Of a stretch of DNA of 21,385 bases, positions 5,490 to 16,616 are shown in pieces. The notes under the pieces are model-generated. The model worked only from the letters and a program-made list of their open reading frames with translations, was not told where the DNA came from and ran no database searches. Source of the DNA: a virus; the IMG/VR virus record IMGVR_UViG_3300017739_000144, positions 1 through 21,385 of that record. The stretch is one strand, 5' to 3'. The number at the start of each line of letters is the position of its first letter. Within the stretch, counting starts at the first letter, position 1. The position numbers and the translations under genes are program-made.

Positions 5490-5735
5490 TTAGTTTCTTT
5501 TTAAGACTTTCTTAAATTCGTCATACCAAAACTTGCTTGAGTCTCTTAAGCTGTAATTAGACTCTCTTATGTACTCAAGCGTTGTTCGTATAATCTCTTT
5601 TCTGCGAATGTCATATTCGTTTTGAGATAAATCGAAATCGTCAAGCATTTCAATAATTGAATCAATATAGGGGCATGTGTTGGGTGGTATGCTAGGAGCC
5701 CTTTCCTTAGCGGACTGTAGTCGTGTCTTACGCAT
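5490..5735 (-). CDS. Small phage protein with CPYID motif (81 aa)
   Basis: An 81-aa predicted helical protein. NTCPYIDSIIEMLDDF (residues 19–34) followed by a helix ending ESNYSLRDSSKFWYDEF resembles a widespread small phage protein pattern, C-P-x-I-D followed later by R-x-x-N-x-x-L-R. Its function is not known to me. It is the first gene behind the promoter at 5759–5787 and starts in the recurring TTATATTATG context without a Shine-Dalgarno sequence. Confidence 0.75.
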   Translation of the reverse strand: MRKTRLQSAKERAPSIPPNTCPYIDSIIEMLDDFDLSQNEYDIRRKEIIRTTLEYIRESNYSLRDSSKFWYDEFKKVLKRN

Positions 5736-5758
5736 AATATAATTTGTGGTGTAGATCT

Positions 5759-5787
5759 ATTCTAACACATTTTTAGACAATTGTACA
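5759..5787 (-). promoter_or_regulatory. Extended -10 promoter, repeat copy 1 (ligase operon)
   Basis: TGTACA (5787–5782), a 17-bp spacer ending in TGT, and TAGAAT (5764–5759). Predicted +1 near 5752, giving a leader of about 17 nt. Together with the hairpin at 5791–5814 it forms a unit repeated at 9371–9427; over 39 aligned bases (5759 and 9371 onward) 36 are identical. Confidence 0.75.
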
Positions 5788-5790
5788 GGG

Positions 5791-5814
5791 AAAAGTGATA
5801 AAAAAATCACTTTT
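5791..5814 (-). terminator. Terminator hairpin abutting a promoter (copy 1)
   Basis: AAAAGTGAT (5791–5799) pairs with ATCACTTTT (5806–5814) around a six-base loop; the stem is palindromic, so it forms on either strand and ends in T4 on both. The stop codon of the 38-aa gene lies inside it. It ends only 3 bp before the -35 box of the next promoter. Confidence 0.65.
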
Positions 5815-5923
5815 TTTCACCTTTTTTGGGTTTCTTTAATTTTTTTCTGAAGATTTGGTCGTAATTGGATCTGTATTTTTCCCCGTCGACCTTCCGGGGT
5901 TTGTCTCCTTTTCCTGCGCTCAT
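5807..5923 (-). CDS. Small basic phage protein, MSAGKGDKPR type (38 aa)
   Basis: ATG at 5923–5921, TGA at 5809–5807. The product begins MSAGKGDKPRKVDGEKYRSN, continues YDQIF, and ends in a Lys-rich tail. A start of M-S-x-x-K-G-D-K-P-R followed by Y-x-x-N-x-D/W-x-I-F is a recurring mini-protein in many tailed phages; its function is unknown to me. It overlaps the HAD gene by ATGA (5920–5923), so it is coupled to it. Its stop codon lies within the terminator hairpin. Confidence 0.8.
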   Translation of the reverse strand: MSAGKGDKPRKVDGEKYRSNYDQIFRKKLKKPKKGEKK

Positions 5924-6930: not shown

Positions 6931-7251
6931 ATGATTAATGATATTCGTAAAAATTTGTTCTTTTTTATAGTGATCTTTGTATTTAGTTTCACGGTACTCC
7001 CAAGCTGTTCGAGTCTGAACAATTCGTCAGAAGCTTCCAGTAGCTCTTTCACCAAAGCAAAGTATTTAACTGAATTAACATATATAACACGGGATAAGGC
7101 TTTGGTTCAAAGATACAAAGAGTCATACATCTCGGCCCGAACAAACTTTTCGGAGTTTGCTGTGCTTAATGAATGGTCGTATGACAGAGATAAGGAAGTC
7201 ATTTTAGAAACGATTGAGTTATTTTTAGAATTGGAATTTGTTGGACAATGA
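6931..7251 (+). CDS. Small lipoprotein
   Basis: A 106-aa exported protein. Residues 1–25 are a signal peptide: basic start (NDIRK), a long hydrophobic core (LFFFIVIFVFSFTVL) and a lipobox-like LPSC with Cys26 as the lipidated residue. A Ser/Asn-rich linker follows, then a helical domain (KYLTELTYITRDKALVQRY…). No known family. It overlaps the papain-like protease by ATGA (7248–7251), so the two are almost certainly co-translated and may act together. The pair lies on the plus strand between minus-strand operons, which suggests a separately acquired unit. Alternatives include an outer-membrane exclusion factor or a protease partner; neither can be shown here. Confidence 0.8.
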   Translation: MINDIRKNLFFFIVIFVFSFTVLPSCSSLNNSSEASSSSFTKAKYLTELTYITRDKALVQRYKESYISARTNFSEFAVLNEWSYDRDKEVILETIELFLELEFVGQ

Positions 7252-8006
7252 GTTTATCAAAATTAAAAAAGAAGTATTCATACGTATTGCCATCAGAGCC
7301 TGACGAACGTGATCACCTTTACGTTGCTGGAAGCGCTCGTGAAGAGGATGTTTCTTTGAAGGCCTTTCGCGGTGATATCCTTAATCAAGGAAGCTGGGGT
7401 TCGTGTACCGGTCATGGAACTGCAGGAATGCTTCATAGTTTTTATCGTCGTATAACTGGTTTAAAAATTGATTTTAATCCGTATTGGATTTGGTATTGGG
7501 TTAGAAAAACAAATGGTTGGGAAGGTGCCAACACTGGAGGTTATCCAAGAGACATATTCAAGACGCTTGTTTCAAAAGGTGTTTGCGAGAATGGAGTTTG
7601 GAAACCGAGAAAATATTCAGACGCACCTCCTGAATTAAGTGATGAACAAGTGATTCGTTTCAGGGGTTATAAAAGGTTAAATGTTGATAGACGAAATTTT
7701 GATAATACCAAGAATGATCTTTATTGGGCGATTGGTCAAGAGCAACTCCCCATTGGAATTAATATGACGGTTTACGCTTCGTTTGAAAGACACGTAGGTC
7801 GATCCAGTAAGCTTCGGTTGCCTGGCCCAAATGACCCTATCGTTGGTTGCCATTGGGCGTTTGTCGATGAAGTTCGATATGATGGCATTACACTTGTTAA
7901 TTCTTGGGGGCAAAAATGGGGTAGCATTGGTACGTTCTTGATGCCTTGGGAATACGTTCGTAAGTGTGTTATCGAAGCTTGGTGCTTGGATCCAAAGTTG
8001 CCTTAA
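7248..8006 (+). CDS. Papain-like cysteine protease (peptidase C1 family)
   Basis: A 252-aa C1-type protease. The catalytic site is intact: oxyanion Gln47 and Cys53 in NQGSWGSCTGHG, His202 in GCHWAFVDEV and Asn218 in LVNSWGQKWGSIGTF. The N-terminal PSEPDERDHLY resembles the P-x-x-x-D-x-R-D-Y/H-x-Y lead-in of bacterial C1 enzymes. There is no signal peptide and no inhibitory propeptide, so it should be cytosolic and active as made, or exported by lysis or carried in the virion. Its start overlaps the lipoprotein stop. Its TAA abuts the TAA of the convergent gene inside the palindrome TTAATTAA (8003–8010). Substrate is unknown; a phage-encoded papain-like enzyme is uncommon in T4-like genomes. 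Confidence 0.92.
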   Translation: MSLSKLKKKYSYVLPSEPDERDHLYVAGSAREEDVSLKAFRGDILNQGSWGSCTGHGTAGMLHSFYRRITGLKIDFNPYWIWYWVRKTNGWEGANTGGYPRDIFKTLVSKGVCENGVWKPRKYSDAPPELSDEQVIRFRGYKRLNVDRRNFDNTKNDLYWAIGQEQLPIGINMTVYASFERHVGRSSKLRLPGPNDPIVGCHWAFVDEVRYDGITLVNSWGQKWGSIGTFLMPWEYVRKCVIEAWCLDPKLP

Positions 8007-8258
8007 TTAATCGGGAAGGTTTAAAAGCTCGGCAAGGTCAATTGCGACGTCGGTTTGTCTTTGATCAAGATCTTTCCAGCGTGAAAGTCTTCCGAGGCGC
8101 TGAGTCGCTGACGTGGCGGAATTGAAGCTTAATTCGGCCTTTACGAGTGACGCTTTTAGATCGGCGAGTTCAGTCACCATCTCCGATACTTGGTCCATCT
8201 GGTCGGGGGATACCTTTCCCTCGGCGAGGAGTTTTTGTGTTTGATCTAGTACTGTCAT
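8007..8258 (-). CDS. Small helical protein (83 aa)
   Basis: A predicted coiled-coil-like protein: heptad-friendly segments QVSEMVTELADLKASLVKAEL (residues ~23–43) and DVAIDLAELLNL near the end. No family is recognised. It is the last gene of the five-gene operon started at 9371–9399, begins in the TTATATTATG context, and is exactly convergent with the protease gene with no space between stops. Confidence 0.7.
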   Translation of the reverse strand: MTVLDQTQKLLAEGKVSPDQMDQVSEMVTELADLKASLVKAELSFNSATSATQRLGRLSRWKDLDQRQTDVAIDLAELLNLPD

Positions 8259-9336: not shown

Positions 9337-9370
9337 AATATAAATTGTGGTAGTTTTTCCTTATAGATAT

Positions 9371-9399
9371 ATTCTACCACATTTTTGGATAATTGTACA
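9371..9399 (-). promoter_or_regulatory. Extended -10 promoter, repeat copy 2 (small-gene operon)
   Basis: TGTACA (9399–9394), a 17-bp spacer ending in TGG, and TAGAAT (9376–9371); predicted +1 near 9364. It is nearly identical to the promoter at 5759–5787 and likewise follows a terminator hairpin by 3 bp. Confidence 0.75.
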
Positions 9400-9402
9400 G
9401 GG

Positions 9403-9427
9403 AAAAGTGCTAAAAAAATGCACTTTT
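9403..9427 (-). terminator. Terminator hairpin abutting a promoter (copy 2)
   Basis: AAAAGTGC (9403–9410) pairs with GCACTTTT (9420–9427) around a nine-base A/T loop. Relative to copy 1 the base pair below the loop has changed from A–T to C–G on both arms, which keeps the stem. It would end the stable-RNA/3D-protein operon. Confidence 0.65.
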
Positions 9428-9437
9428 TTGCCATTTT

Positions 9438-9475
9438 TGCCCAATTTGATACAAAAATGCCCAATTTGATACAAA
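9438..9475 (-). repeat. Tandem direct repeat, 18 bp at 20-bp period
   Basis: TGCCCAATTTGATACAAA occurs at 9438–9455 and again, identically, at 9458–9475, joined by AA. It lies between the stop of the 3D-domain gene (9489) and the terminator–promoter unit. Possible protein-binding site or 3' RNA element. Confidence 0.8.
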
Positions 9476-10046: not shown

Positions 10047-10062
10047 CGTGATTTAATGAAAA

Positions 10063-10260
10063 CTAATCAATTATTCCGTTTACCAGTAAAGCATTATAAA
10101 CGGCATTCATCATTTCAATATCGGAGAAATAACGAATCACATCGTTTGCTATAGCTTCGCCGTATTCTTCTTTTACACTTTGAAAAAGATCAAGTCTACA
10201 GCCTGGGTATGTTTCGAGGCCGTGCTTTTCCAACATTAGTTTTAAGTTTTCAACGCTCAT
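10063..10260 (-). CDS. Small acidic helical protein (65 aa)
   Basis: A 65-aa protein (MSVENLKLMLEKHGLETY…) that is helical throughout by composition, with no recognised family. It directly follows tRNA-Glu (20 bp) in the same transcript, so its mRNA must be produced by tRNA 3' processing or by read-through. No Shine-Dalgarno sequence is seen. Confidence 0.65.
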   Translation of the reverse strand: MSVENLKLMLEKHGLETYPGCRLDLFQSVKEEYGEAIANDVIRYFSDIEMMNAVYNALLVNGIID

Positions 10261-10280
10261 AGTATTTGATTAGTTTAAAG

Positions 10281-10352
10281 CATCCCCACCCGGGATCGAA
10301 CCGAGATTGCCTGGATGAAAACCAGGTGTCCTAACCATTAGACGATAGGGAC
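10281..10352 (-). tRNA. tRNA-Glu(UUC)
   Basis: A 72-nt cloverleaf on the minus strand: acceptor GTCCCTA pairing with TGGGGAT (one G-T at the end), D arm GTCTAATGGTTAGGAC, anticodon stem CCTGG/CCAGG with loop TTTTCAT (anticodon TTC) and T arm with TTCGATC. No CCA is encoded after the discriminator G, so CCA must be added. It lies 6 bp downstream of tRNA-Thr. Confidence 0.93.
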
Positions 10353-10358
10353 TTAAAG

Positions 10359-10434
10359 TGGAGCCACCTGTCAGACTCGAACTGACGACCTGCTGATTAC
10401 AAATCAGCTGCTCTACCAACTGAGCTAAGGTGGC
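10359..10434 (-). tRNA. tRNA-Thr(UGU)
   Basis: A 76-nt cloverleaf on the minus strand: acceptor GCCACCT/AGGTGGC, D arm GCTCAGTTGGTAGAGC, anticodon stem GCTGA/TCAGC with loop TTTGTAA (anticodon TGT), T arm GTCAG-TTCGAGT-CTGAC and an encoded TCCA 3' end. The 5' end is only 5 nt from the structured RNA upstream. Confidence 0.95.
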
Positions 10435-10439
10435 ATTTT

Positions 10440-10607
10440 GTATCCTCATTAATACCAGCGGGAATTTGTGTCCAAGGGTAGCTAATCCTGTCACCCGCCC
10501 CTGATGAGCTAATTCAGTTTTTCACTAGGGTTTTAATTCTTTCCAAGCTCATGGAAAGTTCCTAGCGGCAGCAAGATCTTTTTATCTTATGGTATTAATG
10601 AAGATAC
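10440..10607 (-). ncRNA. Structured RNA with 17-bp closing helix and pseudoknot, upstream of tRNAs
   Basis: A 168-nt element with no credible ORF. P1: 10607–10591 pairs with 10456–10440, 17 contiguous pairs with one G-U. Inside, in order: P2 AAGAT/ATCTT (10588–10584 with 10577–10573); P3 CGCTAGG/CCTAGTG, 7 pairs (10567–10561 with 10529–10523); nested in P3, hairpin P4 CTTTCCA/TGGAAAG (10558–10552 with 10545–10539); its six-base loop TGAGCT (10551–10546) is fully complementary to AGCTCA at 10510–10505, giving a pseudoknot; P5 GCGGG/CCCGC (10498–10494 with 10462–10458). It starts about 40 nt after a strong promoter and ends 5 nt before tRNA-Thr. T4 encodes stable RNAs of unknown role (RNA C and D) in its tRNA cluster, which is a possible parallel. 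A riboswitch, a processing element or a marine phage RNA such as the manA or wcaG class are alternatives I cannot test. Confidence 0.75.
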
Positions 10608-10654
10608 AAAAATTATATATTAACTTTATTTACGGTATTGTTGTTTGTTAGTAT

Positions 10655-10683
10655 ATTATACCATATTTTAAACAAAATGTAAA
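10655..10683 (-). promoter_or_regulatory. Extended -10 promoter for the stable-RNA operon
   Basis: TTTACA (10683–10678), a 17-bp spacer ending in TGG, and TATAAT (10660–10655). It is the closest to consensus of the set. Predicted +1 near 10648, followed by the structured RNA, tRNA-Thr, tRNA-Glu and three ORFs. It follows the DUF1501 terminator by 14 bp. Confidence 0.8.
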
Positions 10684-10697
10684 TAACAAAATACTAA

Positions 10698-10731
10698 ACC
10701 GCCCAATCCTAGTAAAATAGAATCGGGCGGT
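10698..10731 (-). terminator. Terminator of the DUF1501/DUF1549 unit
   Basis: On the minus strand ACCGCCCGAT (10731–10722) pairs with ATTGGGCGGT (10707–10698), ten pairs including one G-T, with a 14-base loop; TTTAGTATTTTG follows. It is 29 bp after the DUF1501 stop. Confidence 0.8.
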
Positions 10732-10759
10732 CAGGCGTTGAATTTAAGTACTTTAAATA

Positions 10760-11962
10760 TTAAGTAAGAGCACCCTTAATAATCTTACCGTAATCAGCCA
10801 CTCGGAATGGTCTTCCGGTTGGAGAGAAGTGGCTTTGCTCAAGATCAAGTCCAGCAAGGTGAGCGATGGTAGCGTTCACATCGGTAATTGTATAAGGATC
10901 AGATATCACCTTTGTCGCTTGCTCATTTGTTTCACCAACAGCCACACCACCATTAATACCAGCTCCGATAAGAAGAGTTGAGTAAGCCTGGGGATAGTGA
11001 TCTCGTCCGGTGTTAACATTGATCTTTGGTGTTCTACCAAATTCAGTTACAATCGCGATCAGCGTTGAATCAAGAAGTCCTTCGCTTTCAAGATCTGTAA
11101 CAAGCGCGCTTACAGCGTCGTCAACTTCTTTAAGCTTGTTATCGAGCTTCTCAAAGTTCTCTGTGTGGGTATCCCAACCTCCGTTGTTAACCTCAATGAA
11201 TCGAACGTCGCCATGAACAAGTCGCTTTGCAAGGAGTAACCCTTGGCCGAGGCGTGTGTTACCATACCGCTCTTTATCTTGAGCGGACACCTTTGAAAGG
11301 TCAAACAAATTGAGATCTTCTGACTCTAAAAAGCGAACTGTATTTTCATAAAAGTCATTGTACTGAGAAGCAATCGGAGACTGGATCTTTGAGTTTACCT
11401 GCCGAAGCAGATCCATGCGCTCAAGTAGTTTAGCGTCTGCTGCAGAGTTTCTTAGACCCGAGTTTGGATCTACAATAGGAAGAGGTGACTTAACCTTGGG
11501 AAGGAATCCACTGCCAGGGTGAGAACTTGCACCGCTAACAAGAACAAAGTCAGGTATGGTGGTGTCTCGATTTGACAAGTGAGAAACCCAACTTCCAAGA
11601 GAAGGGTGAGTGATAGTCGCAAGTTGCTTGAACGAAGTTCGGTTCAGATACTGAGCCTGTCGGTGAGCACCGGTCTTTGAAGTCAGTGATCGAATAACAG
11701 CAGCCTTGTCCATTACCTTGGCAAGTTTAGGAAGGCGGTGTCCGATTTGAAACTCGCCTGTTGTTCCAATCGCGGTGGTGTCTCCTGCCACTTCTTTATC
11801 TGTCTTTGGGTCAAACGAATCAATGTGACTCATTCCACCATCAAGGCAGATATAGATGATGTTCTTGGCTTTTGTATCTTTAACAGGCTGGGCATCTACC
11901 ACGTTCACACCGTATGTGGCGGCGGCTAAACCAGCGATGAATTTACGTCTATCTGTGTTCAT
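10760..11962 (-). CDS. DUF1501 protein (alkaline-phosphatase/sulfatase-like fold) with Tat signal
   Basis: A 400-aa DUF1501 protein. The N-terminus DRRKFIAGLAAAT is a twin-arginine signal, so it should be folded in the cytoplasm and exported. Family motifs are ICLDGGMSHIDSFDP (38–52), NNGGWDTHTENF (259–270), VTEFGRTPKIN (305–315) and GRDHYPQAYS (319–328), which correspond to the metal-site region of the alkaline-phosphatase-like superfamily. Enzymatic substrate is not known for the family. It lies 10 bp downstream of the DUF1549/DUF1553 gene, preceded by an AAAGGA site, and ends before its own terminator. In Planctomycetota and Verrucomicrobiota DUF1501 and DUF1549/DUF1553 genes are commonly adjacent, as here; finding the intact pair in a phage is unusual. 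All key motifs look preserved, so it is likely functional. Confidence 0.92.
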   Translation of the reverse strand: MNTDRRKFIAGLAAATYGVNVVDAQPVKDTKAKNIIYICLDGGMSHIDSFDPKTDKEVAGDTTAIGTTGEFQIGHRLPKLAKVMDKAAVIRSLTSKTGAHRQAQYLNRTSFKQLATITHPSLGSWVSHLSNRDTTIPDFVLVSGASSHPGSGFLPKVKSPLPIVDPNSGLRNSAADAKLLERMDLLRQVNSKIQSPIASQYNDFYENTVRFLESEDLNLFDLSKVSAQDKERYGNTRLGQGLLLAKRLVHGDVRFIEVNNGGWDTHTENFEKLDNKLKEVDDAVSALVTDLESEGLLDSTLIAIVTEFGRTPKINVNTGRDHYPQAYSTLLIGAGINGGVAVGETNEQATKVISDPYTITDVNATIAHLAGLDLEQSHFSPTGRPFRVADYGKIIKGALT

Positions 11963-11972
11963 ATTTTTTCCT

Positions 11973-13721
11973 TTAAATAATAAGTTTAAATTCGTGGCTA
12001 TTAATCAACACCCACACAATGTCCGCAAAGGGAACATTCATAAAGTTTTTAATCTCTTGCTCTGTTGGATACCTGCCGATGTAAGAAGCAAAAAGGTATT
12101 CAATCGCAGTGTCTTTGTTCCAATCGGCCAACCTATCAATAACCTGATTGTTATCGTCCATAAGGCCTTTGGTTAAAGGACCGTTCATAAGGGTTAGAAT
12201 CTGAGTAATGTTTGCGTCTTCATTACCAGTCTCGATTAGATTCCTATCAGACCTTCCAAACTCAAGCATGAAATTACCAGCCGAACCTTCAAAAATATTT
12301 GAAGAACGTATCATCATTTCACGTCCCATTTTTGGAGCACCTTCGTAATACTGCCGCTGTAGCTTTTGGTATTCAGCGTAGGTCTCTAATGCGGTGGTTG
12401 AATTAACGCTTGCCAAATCAGTTGTGAAGAGCTCACGGTATGTTCCTCGAAGATCAGCAGGTTGCCATGCATCAACGTCTCCAGTATGTAGTGTAACAAT
12501 GCTGTCCCAAAGCTGAGCTGAAGTCATGCGTCTCATCTTTGGTCCACGAAACGTGTCGCCGTCATCTGATTGAGAAGAGTAAAACCGAGTATTGTAAAGA
12601 ATGCGATTAAACTCCCGCGTATCATAGTCAAGATCTTTAATCAGTTGAGTTAAGTACTGAACAAGCTCGGCGTTTTTACTGTGACGCAGTTCATCAAAAA
12701 GAGCAATGTCATTAAGGGTAAAATGGATAAGCTTGAATCCAAACGCTTTATACCAAAGACGATTTACAATATTGGTAGCAAAGGTCGGATGCTGATCATC
12801 AGTAAACCATTTAGCAAAGTCCTGTGTTAATGTACCGCGTTCGCTACCTTCTCGAAGAACTTGGCCAATTGGTGTACGAGCTTCAACCGTTTCATATGGT
12901 TCGGCATCGCTGTATTTGTAATCGTGAGGAAGCTTTAAAACCTTTTTAGGATCATGGGTAATTGTGTTACGATATCCTCCAACTGCCCACCACTGACCGA
13001 GCCTGTTAATCGCTCCACGGGTATCACCCTTTTCGTCCGAAGCGCGAGCTTCTGTTCTAAGCTTGCCGTAAATGGATCTCTCCTCGGCAAGACCTCGCGT
13101 GTTTAGCGTGGAAAAGAAAGCGGTGATATTGTAGTAATCCATTTGAGTCCATTCATCAAACGGATGGTCATGGCATTGAGCGCATGAGATATTTGTTCCT
13201 GCAAGAGCCGTAAAGGTGTTTGCCACATTGTCAAGTAGCATTCCTTCGTCCTTTAGGTAATACCCAACTGCAGGGTTATCGTAAATGTCGCCTTCAGCTG
13301 TTAGAAGCTGTTTGACAAACTCGTCGTAATGAGTGTTAACCGCGATCTGCTCTTTGATCCAAGTGATATAGGTATCAGCCGGAACGTTGTTAACCACCTT
13401 TCGTTTAATCCTAAGCAAGTCAGCATAGAAGTTAAACATTGACTCGACATATCCTTGTGAATTAATCAGCTTTTCAATAAGAGCTTCTTTATTGGGGTCG
13501 CGAATGAATGTTTCGCGGTCGTCGTATGTTGGGATTCTTCCAACAATGTCTAGATAAGCACGGCGAACAAACACTTCGTCCGATGCCTTTGTGGGCATTG
13601 CCACTTTATTTGCGCGTAAATTACTTGCAATAAGTTGGTCGATTTTTAAGCTGGGTGAGACCTCTCCCAATGCATAATTAGAAACCAGGACTAGTGCAGT
13701 AACAAGTATTAACCTAACCAT
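11973..13721 (-). CDS. DUF1549/DUF1553 protein with c-type heme motif
   Basis: A 582-aa exported protein. Residues 1–19 are a signal peptide (LILVTALVLVSNYALG). The DUF1549 (PSCyt2) part spans about 25–220: VRRAYLDIVGRIPT (52–65), YADLLRIKR, and the heme-binding CAQCH (180–184) within NISCAQCHDHPFDEW. DUF1553 (PSD1) fills the C-terminal half, with QHPTFATNIVNRLWYKAFGF and RDRNLIETGN-like segments (seen as GRSDRNLIETGNED). Cellular homologues, as I recall them, are usually longer (often 800 aa or more) and may carry an extra N-terminal cytochrome domain, so this is a compact form. The role is unknown; redox function at the cell envelope is inferred from the CxxCH. Heme attachment would depend on the host. 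It is co-transcribed with DUF1501. An exact TATAAATA lies 5 bp before the ATG. Confidence 0.92.
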   Translation of the reverse strand: MVRLILVTALVLVSNYALGEVSPSLKIDQLIASNLRANKVAMPTKASDEVFVRRAYLDIVGRIPTYDDRETFIRDPNKEALIEKLINSQGYVESMFNFYADLLRIKRKVVNNVPADTYITWIKEQIAVNTHYDEFVKQLLTAEGDIYDNPAVGYYLKDEGMLLDNVANTFTALAGTNISCAQCHDHPFDEWTQMDYYNITAFFSTLNTRGLAEERSIYGKLRTEARASDEKGDTRGAINRLGQWWAVGGYRNTITHDPKKVLKLPHDYKYSDAEPYETVEARTPIGQVLREGSERGTLTQDFAKWFTDDQHPTFATNIVNRLWYKAFGFKLIHFTLNDIALFDELRHSKNAELVQYLTQLIKDLDYDTREFNRILYNTRFYSSQSDDGDTFRGPKMRRMTSAQLWDSIVTLHTGDVDAWQPADLRGTYRELFTTDLASVNSTTALETYAEYQKLQRQYYEGAPKMGREMMIRSSNIFEGSAGNFMLEFGRSDRNLIETGNEDANITQILTLMNGPLTKGLMDDNNQVIDRLADWNKDTAIEYLFASYIGRYPTEQEIKNFMNVPFADIVWVLINSHEFKLII

Positions 13722-14408: not shown

Positions 14409-15041
14409 ATGAGATTCAAAGGAAAACAAGGCATCGTAAAAGAGGTCCAAGCTGCACTTGGTTTAAAAGCTGATGGTATTGACGGACCTAAAACATGGAA
14501 GATGATTTGGGAGAACCTTGTGCATGACGGTAAAGGAGAACCAGAAAAACCAGAAGCTTCGGTTGAAACCATTCAAGATGACTATTCTGAAGTTTTTAAA
14601 TCTTCCCCAAACCAAAGTGGAACAATTATTCCCAAGTATATTATTCTACATCACAGCAGCGGAAGTCATGATGGTACACGTTCTTGGATTTTAAATAGTG
14701 CTTCAAATGTTAGCTATCATTATCTAATTGCTGCCGACGGTTCACGTACTCAATTTGTGAAAGATACCAAAAAGGCATGGCATGCAGGAAGTTCAAACTG
14801 GGGTGGGATCAGTGGATTAAACAGTCATAGTGTGGCTATATCCTTTTACGGAGATACAAATAATCGAACACCTTCCGCAGCAGAAATTGATTCTTGCGCT
14901 AAGAAATGTATTTACCTTATGAGCAAATTTGGTTTAGACGAAAGCAAGATACTCACTCACGAACAAGTTTCACCAGGCCGGAAGAATGATTGTTCTGAAG
15001 AAACTCAAGAACTGGTATTAAAAAGAATTAAAGAACTATGA
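14409..15041 (+). CDS. N-acetylmuramoyl-L-alanine amidase (endolysin)
   Basis: A 210-aa endolysin. Residues 1–38 form a peptidoglycan-binding-like repeat (VKEVQAALGLKADGIDGPKTWKMIW, the PG_binding_1 pattern). A Glu/Pro/Lys linker follows. The amidase_2 domain runs from about 74 to the end: YIILHHSSG (zinc His81), SYHYLIAADGS, WHAGSSNWGG, NSHSVAISFYGD and ILTHEQVSPGRKNDC (zinc His184; Cys195 the likely third ligand, as in T7 lysozyme). It cleaves the amide bond between MurNAc and L-Ala. There is no signal peptide, so it needs the holin; a holin/spanin cassette lies opposite at 15433–15985. It overlaps the next gene by ATGA (15038–15041). Confidence 0.92.
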   Translation: MRFKGKQGIVKEVQAALGLKADGIDGPKTWKMIWENLVHDGKGEPEKPEASVETIQDDYSEVFKSSPNQSGTIIPKYIILHHSSGSHDGTRSWILNSASNVSYHYLIAADGSRTQFVKDTKKAWHAGSSNWGGISGLNSHSVAISFYGDTNNRTPSAAEIDSCAKKCIYLMSKFGLDESKILTHEQVSPGRKNDCSEETQELVLKRIKEL

Positions 15042-16058: not shown

Positions 16059-16616
16059 TTATCTGTCTAAAAAAATTATATTTTCTTCTTCACTTTGTTT
16101 GTTTAAGTATCTTTCTTCGGCCTTAGCATGGTGACGTTTTTCTACACTACGGCTTATTCTTTTTCTATAAAAGTTTGCTTTTTTAAATGAGTCAAACCCT
16201 ATAAGTTTAATCTTTGCAGGAGAAGCTTTATTAAGTAAATACCAAATGGTAGATATCCCTACACTTGGATCCTTTTTTGTATCAATGGCCAATGCTGCAT
16301 CCTTGGGATCGCAGTCAAGATGAATATAATCGTGTCTTAAATTCACTGGAGGATGGCGATCGTATCTTACACAAAGGTCAGGCTTTACTTCTGCTTTAGA
16401 ATAAATTTCTTGGCATAAGTTTTCAAGCTTCATGGCAAATATCCAAGCGTCGCATTTTTGTCCTATAGCATGCATGTGTAAGTATGCAATTGAAAGATTA
16501 AAACGAATAACAAACTCGTGCGAATCAATAAGTTCTGAGTAATCTTGTAGCAGTAAAGATCTGCTGTTACCAACTACCAGAACTTCTTTCCCCTTTACTG
16601 CATCACTTAATTTCAT
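16059..16616 (-). CDS. GT29 (sialyltransferase-like) glycosyltransferase
   Basis: A 185-aa protein with the three sialylmotifs of family GT29: motif L, VLVVGNSRSLL followed by SELIDSHEFVIRFN (13–40); motif S, DPSVGISTIWYLL followed by KIKLIGFDSF (116–145); and a VS-like H-x-x-x-E (His163, Glu167). The donor would be a CMP-activated acidic sugar in canonical members; bacterial and phage relatives may differ. It is shorter than animal enzymes, and there is no membrane anchor, so it should be cytosolic. It is the last gene of the glycosyltransferase array, followed directly by the lysis cassette. Confidence 0.8.
   Translation of the reverse strand: MKLSDAVKGKEVLVVGNSRSLLLQDYSELIDSHEFVIRFNLSIAYLHMHAIGQKCDAWIFAMKLENLCQEIYSKAEVKPDLCVRYDRHPPVNLRHDYIHLDCDPKDAALAIDTKKDPSVGISTIWYLLNKASPAKIKLIGFDSFKKANFYRKRISRSVEKRHHAKAEERYLNKQSEEENIIFLDR

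Follow-up and report, generated by a model that had tools for sequence, protein, structure and literature searches.

The locus and its phage

The window, i.e., the whole stretch of DNA that was analysed (21,385 nucleotides), is a 21.4-kb IMG/VR virus record that aligns over nearly its whole length to a longer record, 3300022074_000105 (42.9 kb; hereafter the sister record), with 99.9% identity over 18,413 and 2,949 aligned bases. On its minus strand, a DUF1549/DUF1553 gene is followed by a DUF1501 gene, a terminator-like hairpin, a promoter, the element studied here and two tRNA genes, for tRNA-Thr and tRNA-Glu (Table 1). The phage encodes T4-type gp32 and DNA ligase, the best match to gp32 among the 40 listed being that of Phage C48C1 (Kyanoviridae, 55%). 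The best explanation is that the carrier is a T4-like phage.

The earlier note on this DNA had assigned the element a promoter of its own, and a strong sigma-70-type site with an extended TG is indeed present upstream of it. The scan returned two promoter-like sites, against 2.7 ± 1.8 in shuffled sequences; the call is based on the strength and the place of this site, not on the number of sites. Transcription is expected to start near position 10648. In the window, P1 is not followed by a U-tract, and neither a terminator-like site nor a start codon lies between it and tRNA-Thr. The element had also been described as non-coding, in agreement with our analysis: the sole ORF of at least 50 aa over it (10494–10270) continues through the sequence of both tRNAs, and a coding function was rejected on this ground.

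Table 1. Features of the element and its surroundings in the window.
Feature	Position	Strand	Remarks
Intrinsic-terminator-like hairpin	10697–10732	−	After the upstream DUF1501 gene; 15 pairs, T-rich tail
Sigma-70-type promoter	10655–10683	−	TTTACA-17-TATAAT, extended TG; 11/12 matches
Structured RNA	10436–10611 (conserved core 10438–10609, 172 nt)	−	Recognized from fold, covariance model and covariation
P1, 5′ arm	10590–10611	−	Pairs with 10436–10457; 5/19 core pairs change on both sides (three copies)
P2 hairpin	10573–10588	−	AAGA/UCUU; sequence conserved with its flanks (CAUAAGA..RUCUUGC); 4 pairs, never vary
P3	10561–10567 (5′ arm), 10523–10529 (3′ arm)	−	5′ arm CGCUAGG; 2/7 pairs change on both sides
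P4 hairpin	10539–10558	−	CUUUCC/GGAAAG; loop UGAGCU (10546–10551) is a kissing partner
P5 hairpin	10501–10517	−	CUGA/UCAG; loop strand AGCUCA (10505–10510) is the other kissing partner; 3/4 pairs change on both sides
P6	10458–10498	−	GCGGG/CCCGC; conserved GGGCGGGUG..AGG.UUA.C...AAUUCCCGCUGG; 5 pairs, never vary
P1, 3′ arm	10436–10457	−	
tRNA-Thr (UGU)	10359–10434	−	
tRNA-Glu (UUC)	10280–10352	−	

Several other features of the window were recorded. The DUF1501 and DUF1549/DUF1553 (PSCyt2/PSD1) genes, here carried by a phage, occupy positions 10760–13721; the DUF1501 protein has no match in the phage collection, and another DUF1501 gene (34% identical) is found in the same neighbourhood in a second IMG/VR contig, 3300017951_005383 (4106 nt; L004 in the following). 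Matches to a sialyltransferase-like protein (GT29) and to a papain-like C1 peptidase were obtained at 16059–16616 and 7248–8006, respectively. One intergenic element is repeated at window 5752–5826 and 9364–9438 and at positions 5551–5680 and 14842–14949 of another locus (L105), with 84–93% identity between places; by eye it consists of a terminator-like hairpin beside a promoter-like stretch. Finally, a short repeat, CATAATATAA (minus strand: TTATATTATG), occurs at 8253, 8644, 8925 and 9331, with a spacing of 281–406 bases; in three of these four places it extends across the start of a minus-strand ORF.

Fold and copies of the element

The element has a minimum free energy (MFE) of −55.2 kcal/mol, compared with −35.3 ± 3.9 kcal/mol for shuffled sequences (z −5.14; none of 200 shuffles as good), which agrees with its previous description as a structured RNA. 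The closing helix proposed in the earlier note is present, but it is longer than the 17 bp with one G-U given there: the arms of P1 are 22 nt long and 95% complementary, forming 21 Watson-Crick pairs and one U-G, with a conserved core of 19 bp. The element does adjoin tRNA-Thr, the gap being 1 nt from the 22-bp P1 or 3 nt from the 19-bp core (which ends at 10438) instead of the 5 nt previously stated. A sequence ATTAGCT had been reported to occur twice and to offer a possible alternative pairing; the repeat exists, but its second occurrence lies at 10486–10480 and not at 10482–10476, and that sequence is not kept in copy C (see below). In the nested MFE structure, a different pairing is preferred for the part comprising P5 and P6. 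A fold in which P3, P4, P5 and P6 are all formed is 0.6 kcal/mol less favourable, the energy of the kissing contact not being counted, and it is this fold, not the nested MFE, that covaries between copies.

Three distinct sequences of the element were obtained from two phage records: copy A in the window, which is also present (as a single copy) in the near-identical 42.9-kb sister record, and copies B and C, located by a pattern scan in L004, where they flank the tRNA-Thr gene. Copy B (L004 3341–3171, minus strand) differs from copy A by nine substitutions and one deletion in 172 columns; all 10 differing columns fall within columns 7–80, and columns 81–172 are identical. Despite this near-identity, the neighbouring 1.4 kb shared by the window and L004 are 76% identical. 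The tRNA-Thr genes of the two loci (L004 3092–3167 for the second) are near-identical save for the anticodon arm, which has been replaced and still pairs. Copy C (L004 3083–2926, minus strand) is divergent and is picked up by a covariance model built from copies A and B (R1) with 71.1 bits and an E-value of 1.2e-18. R1 likewise matches copy B on its other strand (25.7 bits), as an inverted repeat would explain.

Copies A and B lie directly 5′ of tRNA-Thr. Copy C is located downstream of this gene, and the next tRNA (Glu, L004 1450–1378) is found about 1.5 kb further on, past the DUF1501 gene. The leader position is therefore not obligatory for this RNA, given that copy C follows tRNA-Thr and has no tRNA immediately behind it. 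A scan of the minus strand of L004 (2700–3700) found no consensus promoter before copies B and C, a result that gives no support for conservation of the promoter and leaves the promotion of these two copies unexplained. The sequence TATAAT or TATAAC is present directly before all three copies (window 10612–10617; L004 3342–3347 and 3084–3089; all on the minus strand). It is possibly a second, T4-late-like promoter or a processing site.

Directly after copy C, a canonical hammerhead core was identified (L004 2918–2872, minus strand), its stems being arranged as in type I. It consists of stem I (CUGUCU/AGACAG), CUGAUGA, stem II (GUUC/GAAC), GAAA and a stem III closed by UUCG. The Rfam model Hammerhead_3 scores 25.5 bits at L004 2921–2884, below its cut-off of 48.5, and a strict descriptor gives this sole match in 919 kb of loci (L004 counted twice) and none in ten block-shuffled sets. 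Such a ribozyme would cut after L004 2878, downstream of copy C. In the window, the strict descriptor has no match and a relaxed pattern has one, with 0.52 expected. In L004, a further folded non-coding stretch (2877–2730, minus strand; −34.8 kcal/mol over 2878–2730, a value without shuffle control) separates the hammerhead from the DUF1501 gene.

IMG/VR and GTDB genomes were searched for homologues by exact pattern, and the retrieved loci and 18 named phages by covariance model. Pattern scans of viral contigs and of genome contigs (34 stretches for the latter) detected no copy beyond the sister record and L004. Outside the known copies, the best E-value of R1 was 3.4 on 46 loci (L049–L093 and L004), 2 on L108–L112 and the sister record and, with the reverse-strand match in copy B likewise disregarded, 0.64 on seven sources including L006, L042 and L045. 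Loci L008–L041, first judged by eye, were later searched with model R2 together with the window and L004 as positive controls, and only the three known copies appeared up to an E-value of 10. In the whole records of seven loci, a single weak match (E 0.09, 41 nt) was found besides the sister record. R2 gave no match at E ≤ 1 in the 18 named phage records and three IMG/VR records, a run with stricter filters and no positive control; R1 on eight of the 18 named phages gave four weak matches of 16–54 nt (E 0.3–2.2). The known range of this RNA is narrow, none of the 18 named phage records matching.

BLASTN of the element against phages returned 68 records up to an E-value of 10, of which the 25 listed cover 19% at an E-value of about 2 and are unrelated; copy C returned five records (E 2–6), and a search against plasmids gave none at E ≤ 0.1. 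A contig 84–89% identical to the window, 3300017714_000788 (L042), ends at window position 10137, just short of the element. A descriptor scan for long inverted repeats, which was run on nine sequences in plus orientation and missed the known copy B, yielded further pairs of 15–16 bp at window 10060–10276 and L004 1935–2101, one each in L042 and L045 and two in L094. Word searches in a limited set of the literature found no description of this RNA.

Compensatory changes and the contact between loops

The alignment obtained with MAFFT (A1) misplaces P3–P5 of copy C, and a model-fitted alignment of the three copies (A4) was therefore used. Because A4 is fitted to the structure and thus leans towards it, copy C was also folded alone; this gave a z-score of −3.8 and recovered P1, P3, P4, P5 and P6 de novo, with another hairpin instead of P2 in the MFE. 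In A4, which contains 45 pairs, 97.0% of the 134 cells pair, a value reached by none of 500 shuffles. Covariation in homologues had been named as a test in the earlier note, and it was found: two-sided changes were counted in 11 of the 45 pairs (5 in P1, 2 in P3, 1 in P4 and 3 in P5), compared with an average of 4.4 in shuffles, none of 500 reaching 11, and with 0–2 when the partner is slid by 1–3 columns. A weaker measure, the number of further pair types, was reached by 20 of 500 shuffles. Copies A and B alone show one double change, which 244 of 500 shuffles reach, and are uninformative; P4 changes from C-G to U-A between them.

All three copies display the P1–P6 architecture, with variation in P1, P3, P4 and P5 and invariant P2 and P6; as the pairs of the latter two never vary, covariation does not support them. 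The earlier note had proposed a pseudoknot in which the loop of P4 pairs with a downstream strand. Both partner sequences are present, 35 nt apart, but AGCTCA lies in the loop of its own hairpin, P5, and the contact is therefore better described, from the sequence, as kissing between two hairpin loops over 6 bp than as a loop-strand pairing. Complementarity between the two loops is found in every copy, with six Watson-Crick pairs in A and B and five plus one G-U in C. From copy A (UGAGCU/AGCUCA) to copy C (AGUCAU/GUGACU) both loops have changed and still pair. Among 100,000 trials with shuffled loops, a Watson-Crick run as long as that observed was reached 781 times for A and 539 times for C; when G-U pairs were admitted, the observed run was reached in 3.8% (A) and 2.2% (C). 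At the level of sequence, compensatory change is shown to maintain P1, P3, P4 and P5 as well as the loop contact, on the thin basis of three distinct sequences from two phage records.

Relation to known RNAs and proposed role

At gathering cut-offs, Rfam 15 matches only the two tRNAs in the window and only tRNAs in the sister record. At E ≤ 10, nine matches were listed for window 10200–10760, none of them overlapping 10436–10611. The search advised in the earlier note, which included manA and wcaG, thus gave no family matching the element, and the best reading of these sequence comparisons is that it represents a new RNA family.

The stable RNAs C and D of T4 (species 1 and 2) have been known for decades and have no known function. 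As annotated, rnaC and rnaD resemble the element in being small phage RNAs of a tRNA cluster; unlike it, they are located at the far end of the cluster, are 139 and 119 nt long and have other folds, rnaC including a T-arm-like hairpin. The kinship to these RNAs considered earlier is not supported: the places and folds differ, R1 and R2 find nothing in the T4 genome (NC_000866), and the identification of the element with RNA C or D was rejected. The packaging RNA (pRNA) of phi29 has about 170 nt, a long closing helix, two complementary hairpin loops and no known link to tRNAs, and its copies join into a ring via loop kissing. It thus resembles the element, in general terms, in size, closing helix and complementary loops; its family has no Rfam match to the element at E ≤ 10. 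Moreover, phi29-like phages are described in the abstract of PMC11476376 as replicating by protein priming, in contrast to the T4-type gp32 and DNA ligase of the present phage.

According to passages of PMC12286853, GOLLD and ROOL are phage RNAs of unknown function that are often found near tRNA islands and contain kissing loops, many GOLLD members exceeding 800 nt. The element has the tRNA-linked location and the kissing loops in common with them, but it is far smaller (172–176 nt, not several hundred) and gives no Rfam match to them at E ≤ 10. The manA and wcaG RNAs, structured RNAs of T4-like phages of cyanobacteria, are described in passages of PMC2864571 as regulating protein genes; they are structured phage RNAs as the element is, the latter having no Rfam match.

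We propose, with a probability of about 0.55, that the element encodes a small, stable RNA that is non-coding, acts in trans and represents a new family, carried by a T4-like phage. The element would be transcribed first in the tRNA operon, together with the tRNAs, and host RNase P, by cutting the 5′ end of tRNA-Thr, would leave its 3′ end 1–3 nt past P1. The closed P1 would shield the RNA from decay. P3–P5 and the kissing contact, for which mainly the shape is kept, may form a scaffold, and the sequence-conserved P2 hairpin, P6 and ends of P1 may form a face for binding a partner; a protein of RNA or translation metabolism, from either host or phage, is the most likely candidate. The trans-acting reading is preferred because copy C lies beyond tRNA-Thr, because a hammerhead core follows it and because tRNA-His and tRNA-Asp of the sister record lack such a leader: the preceding open frames stop at distances of 14 and 6 nt, respectively, from these two genes, leaving no room for one. 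We count against the proposal the position of copies A and B, which is as expected of a cis leader, the result that no consensus promoter precedes copies B and C, and the 1-nt spacing between the 22-bp P1 and the acceptor stem, a possible obstacle to RNase P.

It is possible, if rather unlikely, that the element is instead a cis-acting leader of the tRNA operon without a separate existence, which shields the precursor at its 5′ end, steers its processing (by RNase P, or by RNase III acting on P1) or enables polymerase to read through. Besides the location of copies A and B and the promoter upstream in the window, the length of P1, sufficient for an RNase III substrate, would fit such a leader. 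This reading does not account for the place of copy C or for the two tRNAs without room for a leader, and a processing hairpin needs no conserved P2/P6 core, no multiple helices and no loop-loop contact.

We regard it as improbable that the P4–P5 kissing is intermolecular and assembles this miniature (about 172-nt) tRNA-linked RNA into rings or particles, in the way that the phi29 pRNA and, as homo-oligomeric cages, the larger GOLLD and ROOL assemble; the element would then be their small counterpart. The complementarity that survives the replacement of the loop letters, the long closing stem and the features shared with GOLLD and ROOL (tRNA-linked location and kissing loops, following passages of PMC12286853) are all in line with self-assembly, but an intramolecular contact accounts for these data too, as the unpaired stretch 3′ of P4 could permit bending back, and the Rfam models of GOLLD, ROOL and pRNA do not match. 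The loops of the neighbouring copies B and C differ in specificity, so that under self-assembly these copies would form separate particles.

A ligand-sensing riboswitch of the tRNA operon is highly unlikely: the combination of conserved core, variable scaffold and kissing contact is common in aptamers, but in the window tRNA-Thr comes immediately after the element without an intervening terminator-like site or start codon, and copy C is in another place. Equally hard to sustain is a DNA element without RNA role, either a small mobile element with terminal inverted repeats or a cruciform where replication starts, as suggested by the 22-bp inverted repeats spanning about 176 bp and the two copies in one locus (L004). 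Inspection by eye of the 20 bases flanking each copy on both sides showed no direct repeats, the 42.9-kb record has a single copy, two-sided changes extend to the internal helices P3 and P5, and a strong promoter-like site reads into the element.

As a trans-acting RNA, the element would belong to a compact family with a defined fold, in which a core conserved in sequence can be distinguished from a scaffold conserved mainly in shape, and it is small enough for probing, for crystallisation and for use as bait for partner proteins. Copy C and the adjacent hammerhead core suggest that some tRNA operons of this kind may yield several processed RNAs. The element adds to the tRNA-linked RNAs of phages, which include the stable RNAs of T4. 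GOLLD and ROOL, as presented in passages of PMC12286853, are further members of this group.
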